Of a stretch of 64,000 bases of DNA, positions 28,301-30,518 are shown piece after piece; the first letter of the stretch is position 1; each line of letters opens with the position of its first letter. The DNA lies in NCBI RefSeq assembly GCF_028807635.1, contig NZ_JARBAX010000002.1:248001-312000 (forward strand), read 5' to 3'. Source of the stretch: Streptomyces spiramyceticus (lineage in GTDB: Bacteria; Actinomycetota; Actinomycetes; Streptomycetales; Streptomycetaceae). The translations under genes were made by a program, and so were the position numbers. Under the pieces are notes generated by a model. It had not been told where the DNA came from. It saw only the letters and a program-made list of their open reading frames with translations, and did not search any database.

Positions 28301-30518
28301 CACCGTCTCCCAGGATGTCAGCCTCGGAGAGCTGGGCGCACAGTTGGCCGCCGGTGCTCCGTACAGCTTCCTCAAGCTGACACCGGGACACCTGGAGCTA
28401 CTGGCCCATCAGCTGGACGCCGAGGCGCTCGCGGCGCTGACCGGGACGGTCGTGGCCGGGGGTGAGGCGTTCCCCGGTGAGGTCGCCAACCGGTGGCTGG
28501 AACTGCTCGGCCCGGGCGGACTGATCAATGAGTACGGCCCGACCGAGGCATCTGTGGCGACCTGCGTCTACGCCGTCATGGAAGCGCAGCCCTCCGAGGT
28601 CGTCCCGATCGGCAGGCCGTTGCCGAATATGACGATGTACGTGCTGGACGGGTGGCTGCAGCCGGTTCCGGCCGGGGTCGCGGGTGAGTTGTATGTCGGT
28701 GGTACGGGTGTGGCGCGTGGTTATGCGAACCGCCCTGATCTGACGGCCGAGCGGTTCTTGCCCGACCCGTACGCCGCCGAGCCTGGTGCCCGTTTCTATC
28801 GGACCGGTGATCTGGTGCGGCAGCGCGAGGACGGGAATGTGGAGTTCCTGGGCCGGACCGACGACCAGGTCAAGGTCCGTGGCTTCCGTATCGAACTGGG
28901 CGAGGTCCAGGCCGTGCTGGCTGAACACCCTGCCGTACGCGAGGCCTTCGTCACGGCTCATCAGCCGCAGAGCGGCGACAAGCAGCTCGCCGCCTACTAC
29001 GTGTCCGACGAGCAGGACGTGCACGACCTCGCCGAATACTGCGCGCTGAGGCTGCCCGACTACATGATCCCCGCCACCTTCACCGCCCTGGAGGCCATGC
29101 CCCTCAACGCCAACGGCAAAATCGACCGCCACGCCCTCCCCACCCCCGACCGCAGTGTCCGATACGGCGAGGAGGAACGGGAGTACACCGCCCCCGAGAC
29201 GGAGACCGAGAAGGCGCTGGCCCGTCTCTGGGAGCTGACGCTCGGGCGCGACCGGATCGGCGCGAACGACAACTTCTTCGCCCTCGGCGGCCATTCGATG
29301 CAGGTCATCAAGGTGATGGCGGCCGCCAGGAAGCTGAAGCTGCCCGTCTCGCTGCAGATGCTCTACCAGACGCAGACACTGGCCGAACTGGCCGCGGAGA
29401 TCGACGCCGAGGTGGCCCGTCCCAACGTGCCCCCCACGGTCGAGCGGAAGCCCGAGACGGGGTCGCAGCCCGCGGCGCAACCGCCCATGGACCGGCTGCC
29501 CGCCATGACGGAGCACCACATCCCTGGCGTGAGCCTCGCGGTACTCCGTGGCGGCGAGGTCTCCGAGTTGCGCGGCTACGGCGCTCTGGAGGCGGGTGGC
29601 ACCGACCCGGTCACCCCTGCGACCCTCTTCCCGGCCGGGTCCATCAGCAAGCACATCACAGCCCTGGGCGTGCTTCGCCTGGTGGACGCGGGCCGGCTCG
29701 ACCTCGACACGGACGTCAACGCCTACCTCACCGGCGGCCGACACGTCGCCGACCGGGACGGCACACCGGTCGCCGTCACCCTCAGGCAGTTGCTGTCGCA
29801 CTGGTCGGGTCTTGTCTCCGTGCCGTACGCCGGTGTCGCACCAGGCACCGAACTGCCGCCGCTCTCGGACCTGCTCGCGCAGACGCACAGCGAGGTCGAA
29901 CCGGGCACCAGGTTCCTGGTCTCCAACACCAACTACTGGGTGATCCAGCAGGTGCTGGAGGACGTGACCGGGACCCCGTTCGCCGAGCTGATGCGGACCA
30001 CGGTCTTCGAACCGCTGCGCATGGCGTCCAGCAGCTTCGAGCCGGCCTTCCCGGAGATCTCCGGCAAGCCGGTGGCCGTGGGCCACGATCCGGTCGGCCG
30101 CCCGCTGGAGGGCGGCTGGCGTGTCGGGCCGCATCTGGCCTCGTCGGGCCTCTGGTCCACCGCCGCCGACCTCGCCAAGGTCGCCGTGGAACTGCGCCGG
30201 GCCTACCTGGGCGAGCCCTTCGCCGTACTGTCCCGGCCGCTGGCCGAGCAGCTGCTCACTCCCGTCGGCGAGGGCACGTTCTACGGCCTCGGCACGGTGG
30301 TGGACGGGGAGGCCCCCGACCTGGAGGCCGGCCACGGCGGGGAGCCGCACGGCTACCGCAACATGCTGATCGTCCGGATCTCGGACGGCACGGGCTTCGT
30401 GGTCCTCACCAACGCCGAGTCGGGCCGCGCGGCGATCAAGGCCGTCTCCGCGCAGCTGCGGGAGCAGTCCCGCTTCGGCGGCGGCGAACTCGCCGGCCAG
30501 TGGGCCCAGGACCAGTGA
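10290..30518 (+). CDS. NRPS-2, six C-A-T modules plus C-terminal PBP/beta-lactamase-like domain
   Basis: 6742 residues. C1 54-490, A1 511-1010, T1 1030-1097; C2 1110-1567, A2 1590-2063, T2 2079-2147; C3 2158-2610, A3 2634-3116, T3 3132-3197; C4 3211-3660, A4 3677-4186, T4 4204-4269; C5 4281-4734, A5 4747-5244, T5 5261-5326; C6 5337-5792, A6 5814-6284, T6 6302-6374; PBP-like domain 6399-6734. Pockets read by eye: A1 DVWNVAMVHK (Thr/Ser/Dap-like), A2 DLPKVAEVGK (Asp/Asn-like), A3 DAATVAAVCK (aromatic-like), A4 DFWNVGMVHK (exact Thr code), A5 DVFSVAMVHK (unclear, related to A1), A6 DLPKVGEVAK (Asp/Asn-like). C1 is an ordinary C domain with HHIACDAW; C2-C6 belong to another subfamily with xHxxx(D/E)GWS. 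There is no epimerisation domain. The terminal domain has S6451-x-x-K6454 and GHGG but V6544-S-N where YSN is expected. ATG 10290 has AAGGAG six bases upstream. Confidence 0.95.
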   Translation: MTSGETDQTVPGDGTGANAGTSAESLRQELLRRRLAGRRGAGRRTAIPRADRGAPLPLSYGQQQMWFLNRLEPDSIEYLVPLVLRLRGPLDADALGRAWQALLDRHEILRTRYALDGEEPAQVIDAPRPVPLPVTEVGDERSIREAVESDMAHPFDLGAEWPVRARLFRHADDDHVLAVVFHHIACDAWSTGVFGQELSALYGAFTSGADDQPLAPLPVQYADYAAWQRAELSGGTLKRQLDYWKDRLAGLEALELPTDRPRPVVRDASGDSVAFALPAPLAERIRELAVRHDATPFMVVLAAFQSLLARYSGRTDVPVGTVGSGRSHPDLQGLIGYGINSLVLRGRLDGDPAFDELLSATRATVLDAFDHQAVPFAQLVDELQPDRDLSRTPLFQVAFTMHGDRTTAFELAGMRAEPYLGTNRSAKFDLDLQLHEAADGSLGGRLDYATALFDRSTVERMAGHLLRLLDAVTAAPAVRLSRLEILGPDERALLADGPEIERPVTRRVHELFEEQVGRTPDAGAVTFGGETLSYGELNARANRVAHLLRARGVGPEDLVGLCLERGIELLPALLGVLKAGAAYLPLDPANPADRLAYIVQDAGARVVLSTSAVAGVLEGRYEGELVLLDRDADVIAAQPDSDPAVEGSPQNLIYTIYTSGSTGKPKGVALTHENVARLMERGREHYAFGESDVWPLFHSYAFDVSVWEMWGALLHGGRLVVVPFTVTRSPDEFLDLLVEQGVTVLNQTPSAFRSLVGAAREGDPRVDRLALRAVVFAGEKLEVPELKPWTDRLGLDRVALVNMYGITETTVHTTYRRLADADLDPQAGNPVGRPLGDLTVHLLDGHGGLVPIGVPGEIHVGGPGVARGYLNRPELTAERFVPNPFGPAGSRLYKSGDLARRLPDGQLEFLGRIDDQVKIRGFRIELGEIENVLAGHPALRDAVVVVREDEPGDVRLVAYVTTDGETQAPAPGELRTLLVAALPEYMVPSAFVVLERLPLTTNGKLDKRALPAPGQDALGSDRAYVAPRTVVEERIAEVWQDVLGLDRVSVEDGFFEVGGHSIRAVTLVGRLRAAGYDLAVRDVFEYRTVARLAELVTGRPAPAAVHSAVEPFELVADEDRAKLPQGLADAYPLSQVQLGMVVEMLTDDGRHPYHNVTSFRIRDEQAFSASALRAAAALVAARHDVLRTSVDLAAYSVPMQLVHATAELPVGVRDLTGLGEDELLASLREFTATERADLFDLARAPLLRLHAHIAGDGSWWLTNTECHAILDGWSHHSFLMEVLEEYRRIRDGEPVDGTVEGTVEGTDAETGTTAARFADFVAAELDTLASDESREYWRNIVDNHARLVVPTAWAGDREDDGQPYRVPVPFHDLEDRLCALATKAGASLKSVLHAAHLKTLSLITEEDRFFSGLVCNARPEVLGADRVYGMHLNTLPFAHDRTARTWRELVTQVFAREIELWPHRAYPMPVIQRELSDGERLIDMRFSYHDFDQVDRDRVDYLASIDDSPTEFPLGVSARIGHLVLTASPRALSRAGTDRLAAMLRSVLEAMAGDPEGSALRSHLSEEELRRELAEWNDSAHEAESVSVPELFEAQAARTPDAVAVRAASGSVTYAELDGRANRVARCLRERGVGAESRVAVVLDRGPDLMAALLGVWKAGGAYVPVDPSYPAERVAAIVETSGARVVLEGALPDLDGYADSAPERVEDLDRLAYVIFTSGSTGTPKGVEVTHRGLVNHVAWAARELASRGTGGAPLFSSVAFDLVVPNLWAPLVVGQSVHTVSAEVDLADLGRHLAAEGPYSFIKLTPGHLEMLGHQLDDATAASLAGVIVVAGEALPGGLANRWLDLLGPGGLINEYGPTEASVGSCVFPVEEGQPSEVVPIGLPLPNMTMYVLDRQLRPVPVGVPGELYVGGTGVARGYAGRADGTAERFLPDPFAAVPGARFYRTGDLVRRRTDGNVEFLGRIDDQVKIRGYRVELGEVQAVLAEHPAVREVFVSVHEPSDGEKWLVAHYVPADTVVTDAELAEHAARRLPDYMVPTAYAALDAMPLNANGKVDRRALPAPGPDAGQDSHTAPRTDTEEQIAAVWRKVLERERVSVHDDFFDIGGHSIRAVALVGGLRAAGFDIGVRDVFEYRTVARLCELLTGRPAPDTTAFTGVEPFALISGEDRAALPADVQDAYPLSLVQTGMVVEMLAEDGGNKYHNVSLFRIQDPDGSPFDVAALRAAARTVTVRHDILRTSVHLATYSVPMQLVHTTAEVPVAVHDLRTMTKDEQARSLSEFRNDEGSRLFELTEAPLLRIAALIDGDDSWYLGLTQPHVVTEGWSHHSLLMEILDCYRQLRDTGTAAEPEPVAVRYADFIAGELESLDSAEDRAYWQQTLDSHVPFALPASWADGPDTPRRPSRARVDLRPLERGLRAFAAAARVSYKSVLHAAHLKVMSMLTDEPAFFTGIVSHGRPEALGAERVYGMHLNTLPHAYDRRSVRTWRELAQQVFDREAGTWPHRRYPLPAIQRLAGANRLIDVVFNYLDFHQVDSDRVDMAGAVHDAATEFALHVSVLGGYLGLSTHTHALSQHSADRLAALYQAVLEAMAADIDGDTRAVVLPAGELELLAPLAGPTPEALDTVPGQFAAHVARTPDAAAVVYEDTTLTYAELDARANQLAHHLTDLGVGPETLVGISAERGPGLVVGLLGIMKAGGAYVPLDPAYPADRLAYMLADSAVPVLVTQEHLLERLPAHQAVAVCLDRDAEVLATRPTTAPAPGLTADNAAYVIYTSGSTGRPKGVVVTHRGTGNLAAAQAGAFGIGVGDRVLQFASASFDAAFADLAQSVLSGATLVLAPAERLLPGPELTRLTFEQRITQVTLPPTALSVLLPDGGLPAGATLVVAGEACTPDLVAAWSPGRRMINAYGPTETTVCASMSDPLTGTARPPIGRPMPGFDLRVLDADLRPVPAGAPGELYIAGVGLARGYRGRPDLTAERFLPDPYGDEPGARLYRTGDLVRLLPDGQLDFVGRVDNQVKLRGFRIELGEIEGALARLDTVRDAVAVVREDSPGDKQLVAYVSPADGHEPSPVALRDALAAGLPGYMVPAAFVVLDSIPLTANGKADRRALPAPERSALAAAAAHVAPRTRAEERIAEIWQDVLGVDRIGVHDGFFDLGGDSIRAVSLIGALREAGFDIGIREIFEGRTVAAVAEIATGRPAPAEPQPGVAPFALITDEDRGLLPAGTDDAYPLSQVQIGMAVEMLADETGAKYHNVSVNRIRDGVPFDGEALREAVRLVADRHDVLRTSFRLTGFSVPMQLVHTTVETPVTVRDLRGLDADAQNEVVRAFVAAEKAALFDLATAPLLRVAALVESDQAWHLALTESHAITEGWSYHALMMELLRTYEQIRDGQAAPVTPAAPPVRFADFIAAELTSLESAEDRDYWQCITEEYEKFELPEGWGENGERPEPYRTRVPLVDLEPRLRALATTAQVSLKAVLHAAHLKVMSQLTAEESFFTGLVSDTRPEAAGADRVYGMYVNTVPFAFDRSARTWRALVQQVFAQEVALWPHRQYPLPAMQRQAGGRRLVDVVFNYQDFRMVDTDLVDVQSGIGSGGIEFGLAVTTLAGHLNLKTNTATLSRANADRLAAMYRAVLESMAAGADGDAQAAYLPPGERELLLADWAARTAATTGDPRTVHGVFEEQVRRTPDAVAVSHQGTRLTYAELNARANRVAHLLRARGIGPETLVGVCMERGVELVPALLGVLKAGGAYVPLDPSYPADRLAYIAADAAAPVVVTEHVAAGVLDGRYEGELIVLDDPRFAEELAAQPDSDPEPLGSADDLIYVIHTSGSTGKPKGVCLSHASVLRLFTVTEDQFHFGPADVWTLFHSYAFDFSVWELWGALLYGGRLVVVPQSVTRSPEDFIGLLADEGVTVLNQTPSAFRSLVGAARDGDPRIERLALRTVVFGGEKLEVGELAPWADRLGLDAPELVNMYGITETTVHVTHHRLDAADLAAPLRSPVGGPLGDLRTVLLDRNGRLVPLGVPGEIHVGGPGVARGYLGRPGLTAERFVPDPYGDEPGARLYRAGDLARRLPDGSLDFLGRIDDQVKIRGFRIELGEISAALGSHPQVRDAVVVVREDLPGEKQLVGYFVPADGPAPSLSELREHLAASLPEYMVPAAYVPIERIPLNANGKLNRRVLPAPAEAALASDTAYVAPRDETERRIAEIWQEVLGVERIGVHDGFFDLGGDSIRAVPLVGALRAAGFDIGVREVFEYRTVARTAELTTRQDTTREEAAVLPFALITEEDRAKLPPGVDDAYPLSQIQAGMVVELLNDGGRSNYHNVTSFRIKDEEPFDGGALAAAVRLVVSRHDVLRTSVHATGYSVPMQLVHTAVDIPVPTHDVTGLDRSGLESALRTYVAGQREDLFDLSTAPLLRVAAHIEGPGAWWLSLTESHVILEGWSHASLVMEILETYRAIRDGEQPAHEQLPVRYADFIAGELAALASDEDRAYWSGIVAEHTKFELPAGWAESVGKPSGSHRVRVDFGDLAAELRALATATGTSFKSVLHAAHLKVLSQLTGEAAFFTGLVCHARPEVAGAERVYGMHLNSLPFAHDRRARTWTELVRQIFERELEVWDHRRYPMPAIQREARAGRLIDVLFNFVDFHQVDGELIDSDVRISETPTEFGLSAHATADNIVLSTTTQVLGKAHAERLAGMYRAVLESMAADAEGDARAMYLPAGERERLLGEQSTEAAEPVTRRVHELFEEQVGRTPDAGAVTFGGETLSYAELNARANRVAHLLRAKGVGPEDLVGLCLERDAELLPALLGVLKAGAAYVPLDPANPADRLAYIVGDTAAPVVLSTSAVAGVLEGRYEGELVLLDRDADVIAAQPDSDPAVEGSPQNLIYTIYTSGSTGKPKGVALTHANVVRLLSTAQEHYAFDETDVWSLFHSYAFDVSVFEMWGALLHGGRLVVVPFTVTRSPEEFLDLLVEEEVTVLSQTPSAFRGLVAAAADGDRRVKQLSVRAVVFAGEKLEVSELKPWTDRLGLARTALVNMYGITETTVHTTYHRLTKRDLEPGAGNPIGRPLSDLRVHLLDANGDLVPIGVPGEIHVGGPGVARGYLNRPELTAERFVPDAYGSAGARLYKSGDLARRLPDGSLEFLGRIDDQVKIRGFRIELGEIESALAGHPAVRDAVVVVREERLVAYVVPVDHAPSLGELRAHLAASLPEYMIPAAFVPLDALPLTTNGKLDKRALPAPEGSALGSDRAYIAPRTAVEQQIAAIWQEALGVDRVGVEDGFFDLGGDSIRALVVVGALRAAGHDLAVRDVLAARTVAALAELATGRPAPAAVGTTLAEAFGLVADEDRAKLPEGLADAYPLSQVQLGMVVEMQSGDARHKYHNVVSVRIRDEEPFSAEALRTAAALIVERHEVLRTSLDLTSYSVPMQLVHAQAGLPVAVRDLRGLNESELADSMRQFTADERAELFDLAAAPLLRIGAHVESDRAWWLSVTQCHVILDGWSHSNLLMEVLGEYRRARSGQEPDESARGESARGEVRFADFIAAELNSLASDEDRTYWKGIVEGYDRFALPAVWADPADTAPVACRSRIAYADLEEPLRALASAAGASLKSVLHAAHLKTLSLLTEQQSFFSGLVCNARPEVLGADRVYGMHLNTLPFAHDRTARTWRELVAQVYGRETELWAHRAYPMPVIQHELADGDRLIEAPFTYQDFRQIDHDLIDTQATVGEGALEFGLRVSALGGSINLHANNHVVNQRQLERIADLFRSVLEAMAADAEGSAQESHLPEQERRRQLVEWNDTAFEAEPASVLKLFEAQAAKAPEEVAVRSGDVTVSYGELDAEANRIAHCLRARGVVAESRVAVKLDRGPKLIASLLGVWKAGAAYVPVDPSYPAERVAAIVKTSGAKVLLDEDRPSVEGFPATAPSRVDDLDRLAYVIFTSGSTGTPKGVEIPHRGLVNHVAQAAREFTKRGTGGTALFSSVAFDLVVPNIWVPLIMGRSVHTVSQDVSLGELGAQLAAGAPYSFLKLTPGHLELLAHQLDAEALAALTGTVVAGGEAFPGEVANRWLELLGPGGLINEYGPTEASVATCVYAVMEAQPSEVVPIGRPLPNMTMYVLDGWLQPVPAGVAGELYVGGTGVARGYANRPDLTAERFLPDPYAAEPGARFYRTGDLVRQREDGNVEFLGRTDDQVKVRGFRIELGEVQAVLAEHPAVREAFVTAHQPQSGDKQLAAYYVSDEQDVHDLAEYCALRLPDYMIPATFTALEAMPLNANGKIDRHALPTPDRSVRYGEEEREYTAPETETEKALARLWELTLGRDRIGANDNFFALGGHSMQVIKVMAAARKLKLPVSLQMLYQTQTLAELAAEIDAEVARPNVPPTVERKPETGSQPAAQPPMDRLPAMTEHHIPGVSLAVLRGGEVSELRGYGALEAGGTDPVTPATLFPAGSISKHITALGVLRLVDAGRLDLDTDVNAYLTGGRHVADRDGTPVAVTLRQLLSHWSGLVSVPYAGVAPGTELPPLSDLLAQTHSEVEPGTRFLVSNTNYWVIQQVLEDVTGTPFAELMRTTVFEPLRMASSSFEPAFPEISGKPVAVGHDPVGRPLEGGWRVGPHLASSGLWSTAADLAKVAVELRRAYLGEPFAVLSRPLAEQLLTPVGEGTFYGLGTVVDGEAPDLEAGHGGEPHGYRNMLIVRISDGTGFVVLTNAESGRAAIKAVSAQLREQSRFGGGELAGQWAQDQ

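Follow-up and report, generated by a model that had tools for sequence, protein, structure and literature searches.

The available text of a 2024 review describes thioesterases (TEs) of the penicillin-binding protein (PBP) type as two-domain enzymes with a lipocalin-like domain that stand alone and act in trans, and the catalytic tetrad given there does not name the tyrosine of the YxN motif (PMC11735501). Such enzymes, for example SurE and Ulm16, serve non-ribosomal peptide synthetases (NRPSs) without an alpha/beta-hydrolase TE. A cis-embedded SurE domain was described in 2026 for BifB of the biffamycin A pathway, which the accessible part of that paper calls unique among NRPSs and where deletion abolished the product (PMC13285481). 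Fusion in cis as such is thus already known. The BE-18257/pentaminomycin cluster cpp holds two NRPS lines with release by an S12-fold enzyme, one free PBP-type TE being proposed for both lines in the accessible text (PMC7827011). Moreover, structure 8KEM, compared here by its title 'PKS domains-fused AmpC EC2', describes a beta-lactamase fold fused to synthase domains; it ranked 44th in our fold search, and our literature searches found no paper on it. In this study we analysed a 64,000-nucleotide stretch of Streptomyces spiramyceticus (contig NZ_JARBAX010000002.1, positions 248,001 to 312,000), referred to as the window, in which two NRPS lines made of condensation (C), adenylation (A) and thiolation (T) domains each end in a serine beta-lactamase-fold domain of family PF00144:

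10290..30518, + strand: NRPS line 1 (6742 aa), six C-A-T modules followed by a PF00144 domain
29286..29300, + strand: GGHSM motif of the last T domain of line 1 (S6336), upstream partner of the putative release domain
29484..30515, + strand: C-terminal serine beta-lactamase-fold domain of line 1, with S6451, K6454, V6544 (tyrosine site), N6546 and H6682
37561..48189, + strand: NRPS line 2 (3542 aa), three C-A-T modules followed by a second PF00144 domain
47101..48186, + strand: C-terminal serine beta-lactamase-fold domain of line 2, with S3236, K3239, K3332 (tyrosine site), N3334 and H3470

The preliminary description of this DNA had reported a complete domain of this fold, with SxxK and GHGG, behind the last T domain of a six-module NRPS, and our analysis confirmed it. 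The line 1 terminus is a complete PF00144 domain scoring above the family cut-off, with S6451-xx-K6454 and GHGG, and the structure prediction proposed there as a check gave a confident S12 fold with a predicted local distance difference test (pLDDT) score of 92.8, which places it among the S12/PF00144 serine hydrolases. The line 2 domain likewise has SxxK and GHGG (pLDDT 91.6). In both NRPSs the fused domain lies directly 3' of the last T domain and no other terminal domain is present. PF00975, the type I alpha/beta-hydrolase TE, was not found in the three NRPSs of the window and was seen only in a free gene at 32806-33615. We consider it probable that the line 1 domain is a cis-acting serine chain-release domain of CubicO-type origin and not a SurE/PBP-type TE, and that release is more likely cyclising.

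The fused domain family and its relation to SurE

With the fused domains of lines 1 and 2 as queries, two protein searches limited by length to NRPS-sized proteins gave 72 and 80 proteins, together at least 143 different NRPSs, and each listed row has C, A and T domains as well as PF00144. This number is a floor from a non-random sample, as the rows represent 90% clusters and one search scored only the 2335 candidates sharing most words with its query. The search for NRPSs with PF00144 behind the last T domain, as suggested at the outset, thus returned a whole family. With the window's two lines the set comprises 145 fused NRPSs, near-copies remaining in the counts, which rules out a one-off curiosity. 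The cis-fused arrangement had been presented as unusual; at least 145 such NRPSs and the published cis SurE of BifB speak against this, while the domains do belong to a different clade. The named hosts are actinobacteria, mostly Streptomyces. Our genome surveys scored the best five to seven candidates per genome, so their counts are floors too: a fused-type domain occurs in at least 21 of 297 Streptomycetaceae genomes at E<=1e-40 (24 places, 20 of them in open frames of at least 1000 aa), in at least 26 of 392 genomes of the genus-level survey at 1e-70 and in at least 7 of 394 of the class-level survey at 1e-40.

Alignment of the 145 fused domains showed that the catalytic residues are largely conserved: serine and lysine are each kept in 144, the histidine of HxG in 135 and its glycine in all 145. 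The tyrosine site is diverse, with tyrosine in 15 domains, lysine in 99, glutamate in 9, valine in 7, leucine in 4 and other residues in 11. In the window the tyrosine of YxN is replaced by Val6544 in line 1 and by Lys3332 in line 2. The protein ends 38-89 residues beyond the HxG histidine in the fused rows (60 in line 1, 72 in line 2) compared to 149-165 in 15 rows of the SurE clade.

These 15 rows were chosen from 49 SurE-type places listed in a Streptomycetaceae survey, which found such domains in at least 45 of 297 genomes at E<=1e-45. Tyrosine is present in 15/15 and the HxG histidine in 14/15, and SurE itself aligns without gaps at the tyrosine site, where it has YSN. Five of the 49 places lie in frames of 2769-3506 aa (G099, G053, G110, G177, G108) and are probably further BifB-like cis-fused SurE domains. 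The two of these places that were read, L093 and L104, which we take for BifB relatives from their length and place, keep the tyrosine and a tail of 150 residues after the HxG histidine, have Asp in place of Asn and fall in the SurE clade; tyrosine, long tail and SurE-clade position set them apart from the window's domains. The source genome also encodes a free SurE-type protein (472-aa frame) on another contig (G000:C1:2020223-2021155).

The line 1 domain shares with SurE and Ulm16 the serine PBP fold with SxxK, Asn and His (S6451, K6454, N6546, H6682), and with BifB-SurE a position behind the last peptidyl carrier protein of an NRPS with an A-T starter (accessible text of PMC13285481). SurE and Ulm16 differ, however, in standing alone, having a lipocalin second domain, keeping the tyrosine and forming a separate clade. 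Phylogeny agrees with this difference. In a tree of 65 rows, which included 29 of the 145 fused domains, 18 free rows and the 15 SurE rows, SurE formed one group (support 100/99) and the fused and free CubicO-type rows another of 47 rows (100/99), inside which the fused rows (96/82) and the non-tyrosine fused rows (98/96) grouped together. Six free rows nesting in the cis clade, the long rows L006 (one of our own) and P0003 (a free one) and PDB fragments were left out of this set. Forcing fused and SurE rows into one clade made the tree 91 log units worse (approximately unbiased test, p-AU 0.0008). An earlier tree of 75 rows that held no CubicO-type rows had united 50/50 fused representatives in one clade (100/100). 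The preliminary description had placed the domain with SurE, DsaJ and MppK. We reject this assignment, as the window's domains have neither the C-terminal lipocalin-like domain nor the YxN tyrosine, lie outside the SurE clade in the larger tree and group with CubicO-type proteins; the family looks separate from the known SurE cyclases. The structural comparison with SurE that had been proposed was uninformative, since IS11, Pab87, SurE and EstB all ranked within 2 Z units for the line 1 domain; we do not use this ranking as evidence on SurE.

The closest free relatives were sought with the line 2 domain as sole query, which gave 398 matches, and the best 120 of these were examined. From the count of free relatives we excluded 31 rows (P0148-P0178), 16 of which carry a T domain by Pfam; they include many NRPS fragments and rows that nest in the fused clade. 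The other 89 are S12 hydrolases of the CubicO type (PF00144, many with PF11954) with 36-44% identity, the closest free relatives among the best 120 of 398. They differ from the fused domains in being free proteins and not NRPS domains, and in keeping the tyrosine in 88/89. A quick tree of 67 rows placed the fused domains beside free CubicO-type rows, with the tyrosine-keeping fused rows grouping separately, adjacent to the other fused rows.

Condensation domains of the dehydrating type and the tyrosine site

Seven of the ten C domains in the three NRPSs of the window belong to the CmodAA (dehydrating) group, namely all internal ones, five in line 1 and two in line 2, whereas the first C domain of each line and that of the starter NRPS group apart from them. 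The features on which this part rests are:

13587..14969, + strand: first internal C domain of line 1, CmodAA (dehydrating) type
33646..34581, + strand: TauD-type Fe(II)/2-oxoglutarate oxygenase 1
35371..36294, + strand: TauD-type Fe(II)/2-oxoglutarate oxygenase 2

A [K/R]SVLLAAH motif was reported for CmodAA domains in the accessible text of PMC11342130, and all seven internal C domains carry a motif of this type, here KSVLHAAH and similar. One of them was compared with solved structures and was most similar to McyA (9e-53) and AmbE (4e-40). Dehydrating C domains were described for AmbE and AlbB, and dehydration in the AMB pathway is preceded by the action of two Fe(II)/2-oxoglutarate oxygenases, as stated in the text available of PMC10880069. 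The window's cluster likewise has two TauD-type oxygenases. The likeness to AmbE, AlbB and McyA lies in the CmodAA domains; the window differs in having five and two of them in a row, with an activity that is predicted here. Judged from their sequences, the internal C domains would give peptides unusually rich in dehydroamino acids.

Within the 145 fused NRPSs, the type of C domain followed the residue at the tyrosine site. For typing the C domains we used the motif together with two profiles. The ten C domains of the window itself served to build these profiles, which may therefore mis-score other C types; the motif is an independent mark. At least one motif-bearing CmodAA domain was found in 122/130 NRPSs without the tyrosine, the remaining 8/130 having a similar C domain without the motif. 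In the tyrosine-bearing group 0/15 had a motif-bearing CmodAA domain and 3/15 had one CmodAA-like C domain without the motif. Similar results were obtained for the C domains after the first, which were CmodAA-like in 401/403 cases (336 with the motif) in the non-tyrosine group compared to 3/47 in the tyrosine group. These counts are not independent, because the link probably reflects one event on the tree, and a Fisher value calculated for it is no fair measure. The fused S12 clade differs from the cis SurE of biffamycin; it is larger, has a changed active site and shows a strong link to dehydrating C domains.

Proposed release of the peptide chain

The proposed mechanism involves three further genes of the cluster:

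2633..3949, + strand: SbnA-type enzyme of 2,3-diaminopropionate synthesis (TIGR03945, 430 bits, cut-off 350)
3956..4957, + strand: SbnB-type enzyme of 2,3-diaminopropionate synthesis (TIGR03944, 393 bits, cut-off 327)
5084..10303, + strand: starter NRPS A-T-C-A-T (1739 aa), expected to supply lines 1 and 2

Lines 1 and 2 begin with C domains that are 62% alike, and each of these is 39-41% like the C domain of the starter. We infer that one shared starter passes its dipeptide to both lines, which would give an octapeptide and a pentapeptide. The A-domain codes were read with an anchor and code tables that we take to be correct, and the exact residues of the peptides are tentative. In line 1, S6451, activated by K6454, would attack the thioester that holds the octapeptide on S6336 of the last T domain, an acylation step that would follow established S12 chemistry. 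The acyl-enzyme would form in a class-C/S12 pocket lined by H6682 of HxG and by N6546. The acyl group would then be freed by an amine of the peptide itself, either its free N-terminus or a diaminopropionate side chain, to give a macrolactam, rather than by water. In class C enzymes and their kin the tyrosine is taken to help activate water. As it was lost while serine and lysine were kept, release by an amine fits better than release by water. The starter begins with A-T and has no acylating C domain, so a free N-terminus is expected; together with the SbnA/SbnB supply of diaminopropionate this would put peptide amines on offer for ring closure. We regard cyclising release as somewhat better than an even bet. 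Probably, a CubicO-type S12 hydrolase was joined to NRPSs apart from the SurE lineage and later lost its tyrosine in the branch of NRPSs with dehydrating C domains. Line 2 ends in a comparable domain of its own and is likely to draw on the same starter NRPS as line 1.

Several observations weigh against this interpretation. SurE keeps the tyrosine and yet cyclises. An established non-cyclisable control in the accessible text of PMC9491159 is a SurE substrate whose C-terminal D-Leu is replaced by L-Leu; judged by domain spacing no epimerisation (E) domains were found in the window's lines, and therefore no D-residue would be available for SurE-like ring closure. The missing tyrosine might also point to a weakly active enzyme. 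On a smaller quick tree that held three SurE rows, one clade including SurE was not rejected (26 units, p-AU 0.22), although we give the larger set more weight. Six rows of the free-length search nest in the fused clade of the 67-row quick tree. One of these, the free-standing P0177 (L107, genome G159), has Gln at the tyrosine site, and no NRPS frame was found within 16 kb upstream of it; loss of the tyrosine is therefore not strictly tied to fusion. Moreover, a further downstream NRPS is present in G171 (L068), G185 (L114), G119 (L075-L076) and G134 (L119), where the main line has six modules in the first two and three modules in the last two. It sits right behind the thioesterase gene and has one or two A domains and condensation-family domains at its end, without a release domain. 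In these clusters it is possible that the chain moves on from the release domain to the further NRPS.

Among the other explanations, hydrolysis is the one with most in its favour, even if we consider it rather unlikely: the domain would be a cis serine hydrolase that frees a linear acid, and the diversity of the tyrosine site would reflect another base (lysine or the N-terminal amine) or slow turnover. The kinship with CubicO-type hydrolases and the lack of E domains, hence of a D-residue for SurE-like cyclisation, agree with this, whereas the absence of the water-activating tyrosine from 130/145 domains that keep serine and lysine does not. That the domain is a true SurE/PBP-type TE, fused in cis as in BifB and stripped of its lipocalin domain and tyrosine, is very unlikely given the separate SurE clade with its two BifB-like cis domains and the difference in tail length. 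The domain might also be no release domain at all and be an inactive or auxiliary S12 domain (for proofreading or modification), release being left to a separate TE or proceeding without an enzyme. The lost tyrosine and a dead free S12 protein beside line 2, which shows that dead members are retained, would suit this idea; it is nevertheless improbable, as serine, lysine and the HxG histidine are kept in 144, 144 and 135 of the 145 domains and neither line has another terminal domain.

A similarly improbable explanation is transfer, in which the domain would hand its acyl chain to a different molecule or carrier, such as the line 2 peptide or a further NRPS. S12 enzymes can act as acyltransferases, as the title given for EstCE1 indicates, and the further NRPSs mentioned above would be conceivable acceptors. 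Both lines occur together in the window, in Streptomyces sp. ISL-96 (G297) and in G769, and fused NRPSs are listed as apparent same-contig pairs in Actinomadura NTSP31, S. durmitorensis and Actinoplanes NPDC049316. However, each line is also found without the other. G107 (L057-L058) has only the six-module line with an intact open frame, and at the place of line 2 a scar, where a truncated second MFS gene (MFS2) leads straight into the final portion of the free PF00144 gene; line 2 has been deleted here by nature. In the 60 kb read there, no other NRPS frame of at least 700 aa was found. G237, G139, G060 and G249 have the three-module line alone, with no further NRPS in the stretches read. In G971 the starter A-T-C-A-T occurs with a line of the second type (over two overlapping frames) and without line 1 in the 80 kb read. 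In G797 (L122, C1:4201-4215 kb) a line 2 cassette of MFS2, the three-module NRPS and the free PF00144 pseudo-S12 gene is present, and the surrounding 80 kb read showed no other NRPS frame, starter included. About 58 kb away lies a separate cluster that has every listed gene, as if the cassette had moved as a unit or used the starter of that cluster. The clusters holding just one line also make a single long assembly line from P0001 to P0002 unlikely, and suggest that one starter NRPS serves two lines that can exist apart.

For release in cis, G107 is instructive: beside its line 1 no further NRPS frame of at least 700 aa was found in the 60 kb read, and the only other TE of the window's cluster is a free gene. 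The release function claimed in the preliminary description is supported by inference, with the acyl-enzyme, its substrate and the ring closure as predicted parts of the picture. Tentatively, and with more doubt than confidence, the family may stand for a second, SurE-independent recruitment of the penicillin-target fold for NRPS release, in which loss of the class C tyrosine, mostly to lysine, made a former hydrolase cyclise the dehydroamino-acid-rich peptides of tandem dehydrating C domains, with one cluster driving two such lines off a single starter. With the fused domains it becomes testable which features of this fold determine whether the peptide is hydrolysed or closed to a ring, and they may supply cyclases for peptides that SurE refuses. 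For genome mining they mark a class of probable dehydropeptide assembly lines that would otherwise be read as lacking a TE. No paper on this fused clade was found among the literature matches listed, whose coverage did not extend to subscription papers and preprints.

Gene cluster and the free PF00144 protein

The remaining genes of the cluster and its surroundings are:

31308..32837, + strand: MFS exporter of the cluster
32806..33615, + strand: free thioesterase (PF00975), type-II-like
48155..49198, + strand: free PF00144 protein (347 aa) resembling D-Ala carboxypeptidases, in which the catalytic Ser, Tyr/Asn and His are lost
51316..53988, - strand: SARP-type regulator with BTAD and NB-ARC domains, beside the cluster and likely its regulator

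The same plan recurs across genomes, consisting of SbnA-SbnB, the starter A-T-C-A-T, a (C-A-T)n line with release domain, the MFS exporter, the thioesterase and two TauD enzymes, with some genes absent or moved in some clusters. The presence of two NRPS lines and of S12-fold release is shared with cpp; the window's lines each have their own fused domain, in contrast to the one free PBP-type TE proposed for both lines in the accessible text on cpp (PMC7827011).

A PF00144 search of the source genome gave 13 places at E<=0.001, 12 of them above the cut-off. Three lie within the window, at the ends of line 1 and line 2 and in the free 347-aa protein directly behind line 2. Among solved structures this protein is most closely related to D-stereospecific peptidases and D-Ala carboxypeptidases. 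We reject it as a third active release enzyme, as all motifs are lost: SxxK is changed to GVTK, YxN to ITR or LTR and the HxG histidine to Met, in the same way in 5/5 orthologues read, with identities down to 61%. In G769 a line of the second type is present and no match to the free protein was found. In all five orthologues the gene adjoins the release domain of a line-2-type NRPS, and part of it persists in the scar of G107. Its sequence looks like that of a retained pseudoenzyme, possibly a pseudo-DD-peptidase, for which a role as decoy, immunity factor or partner would be our guess.

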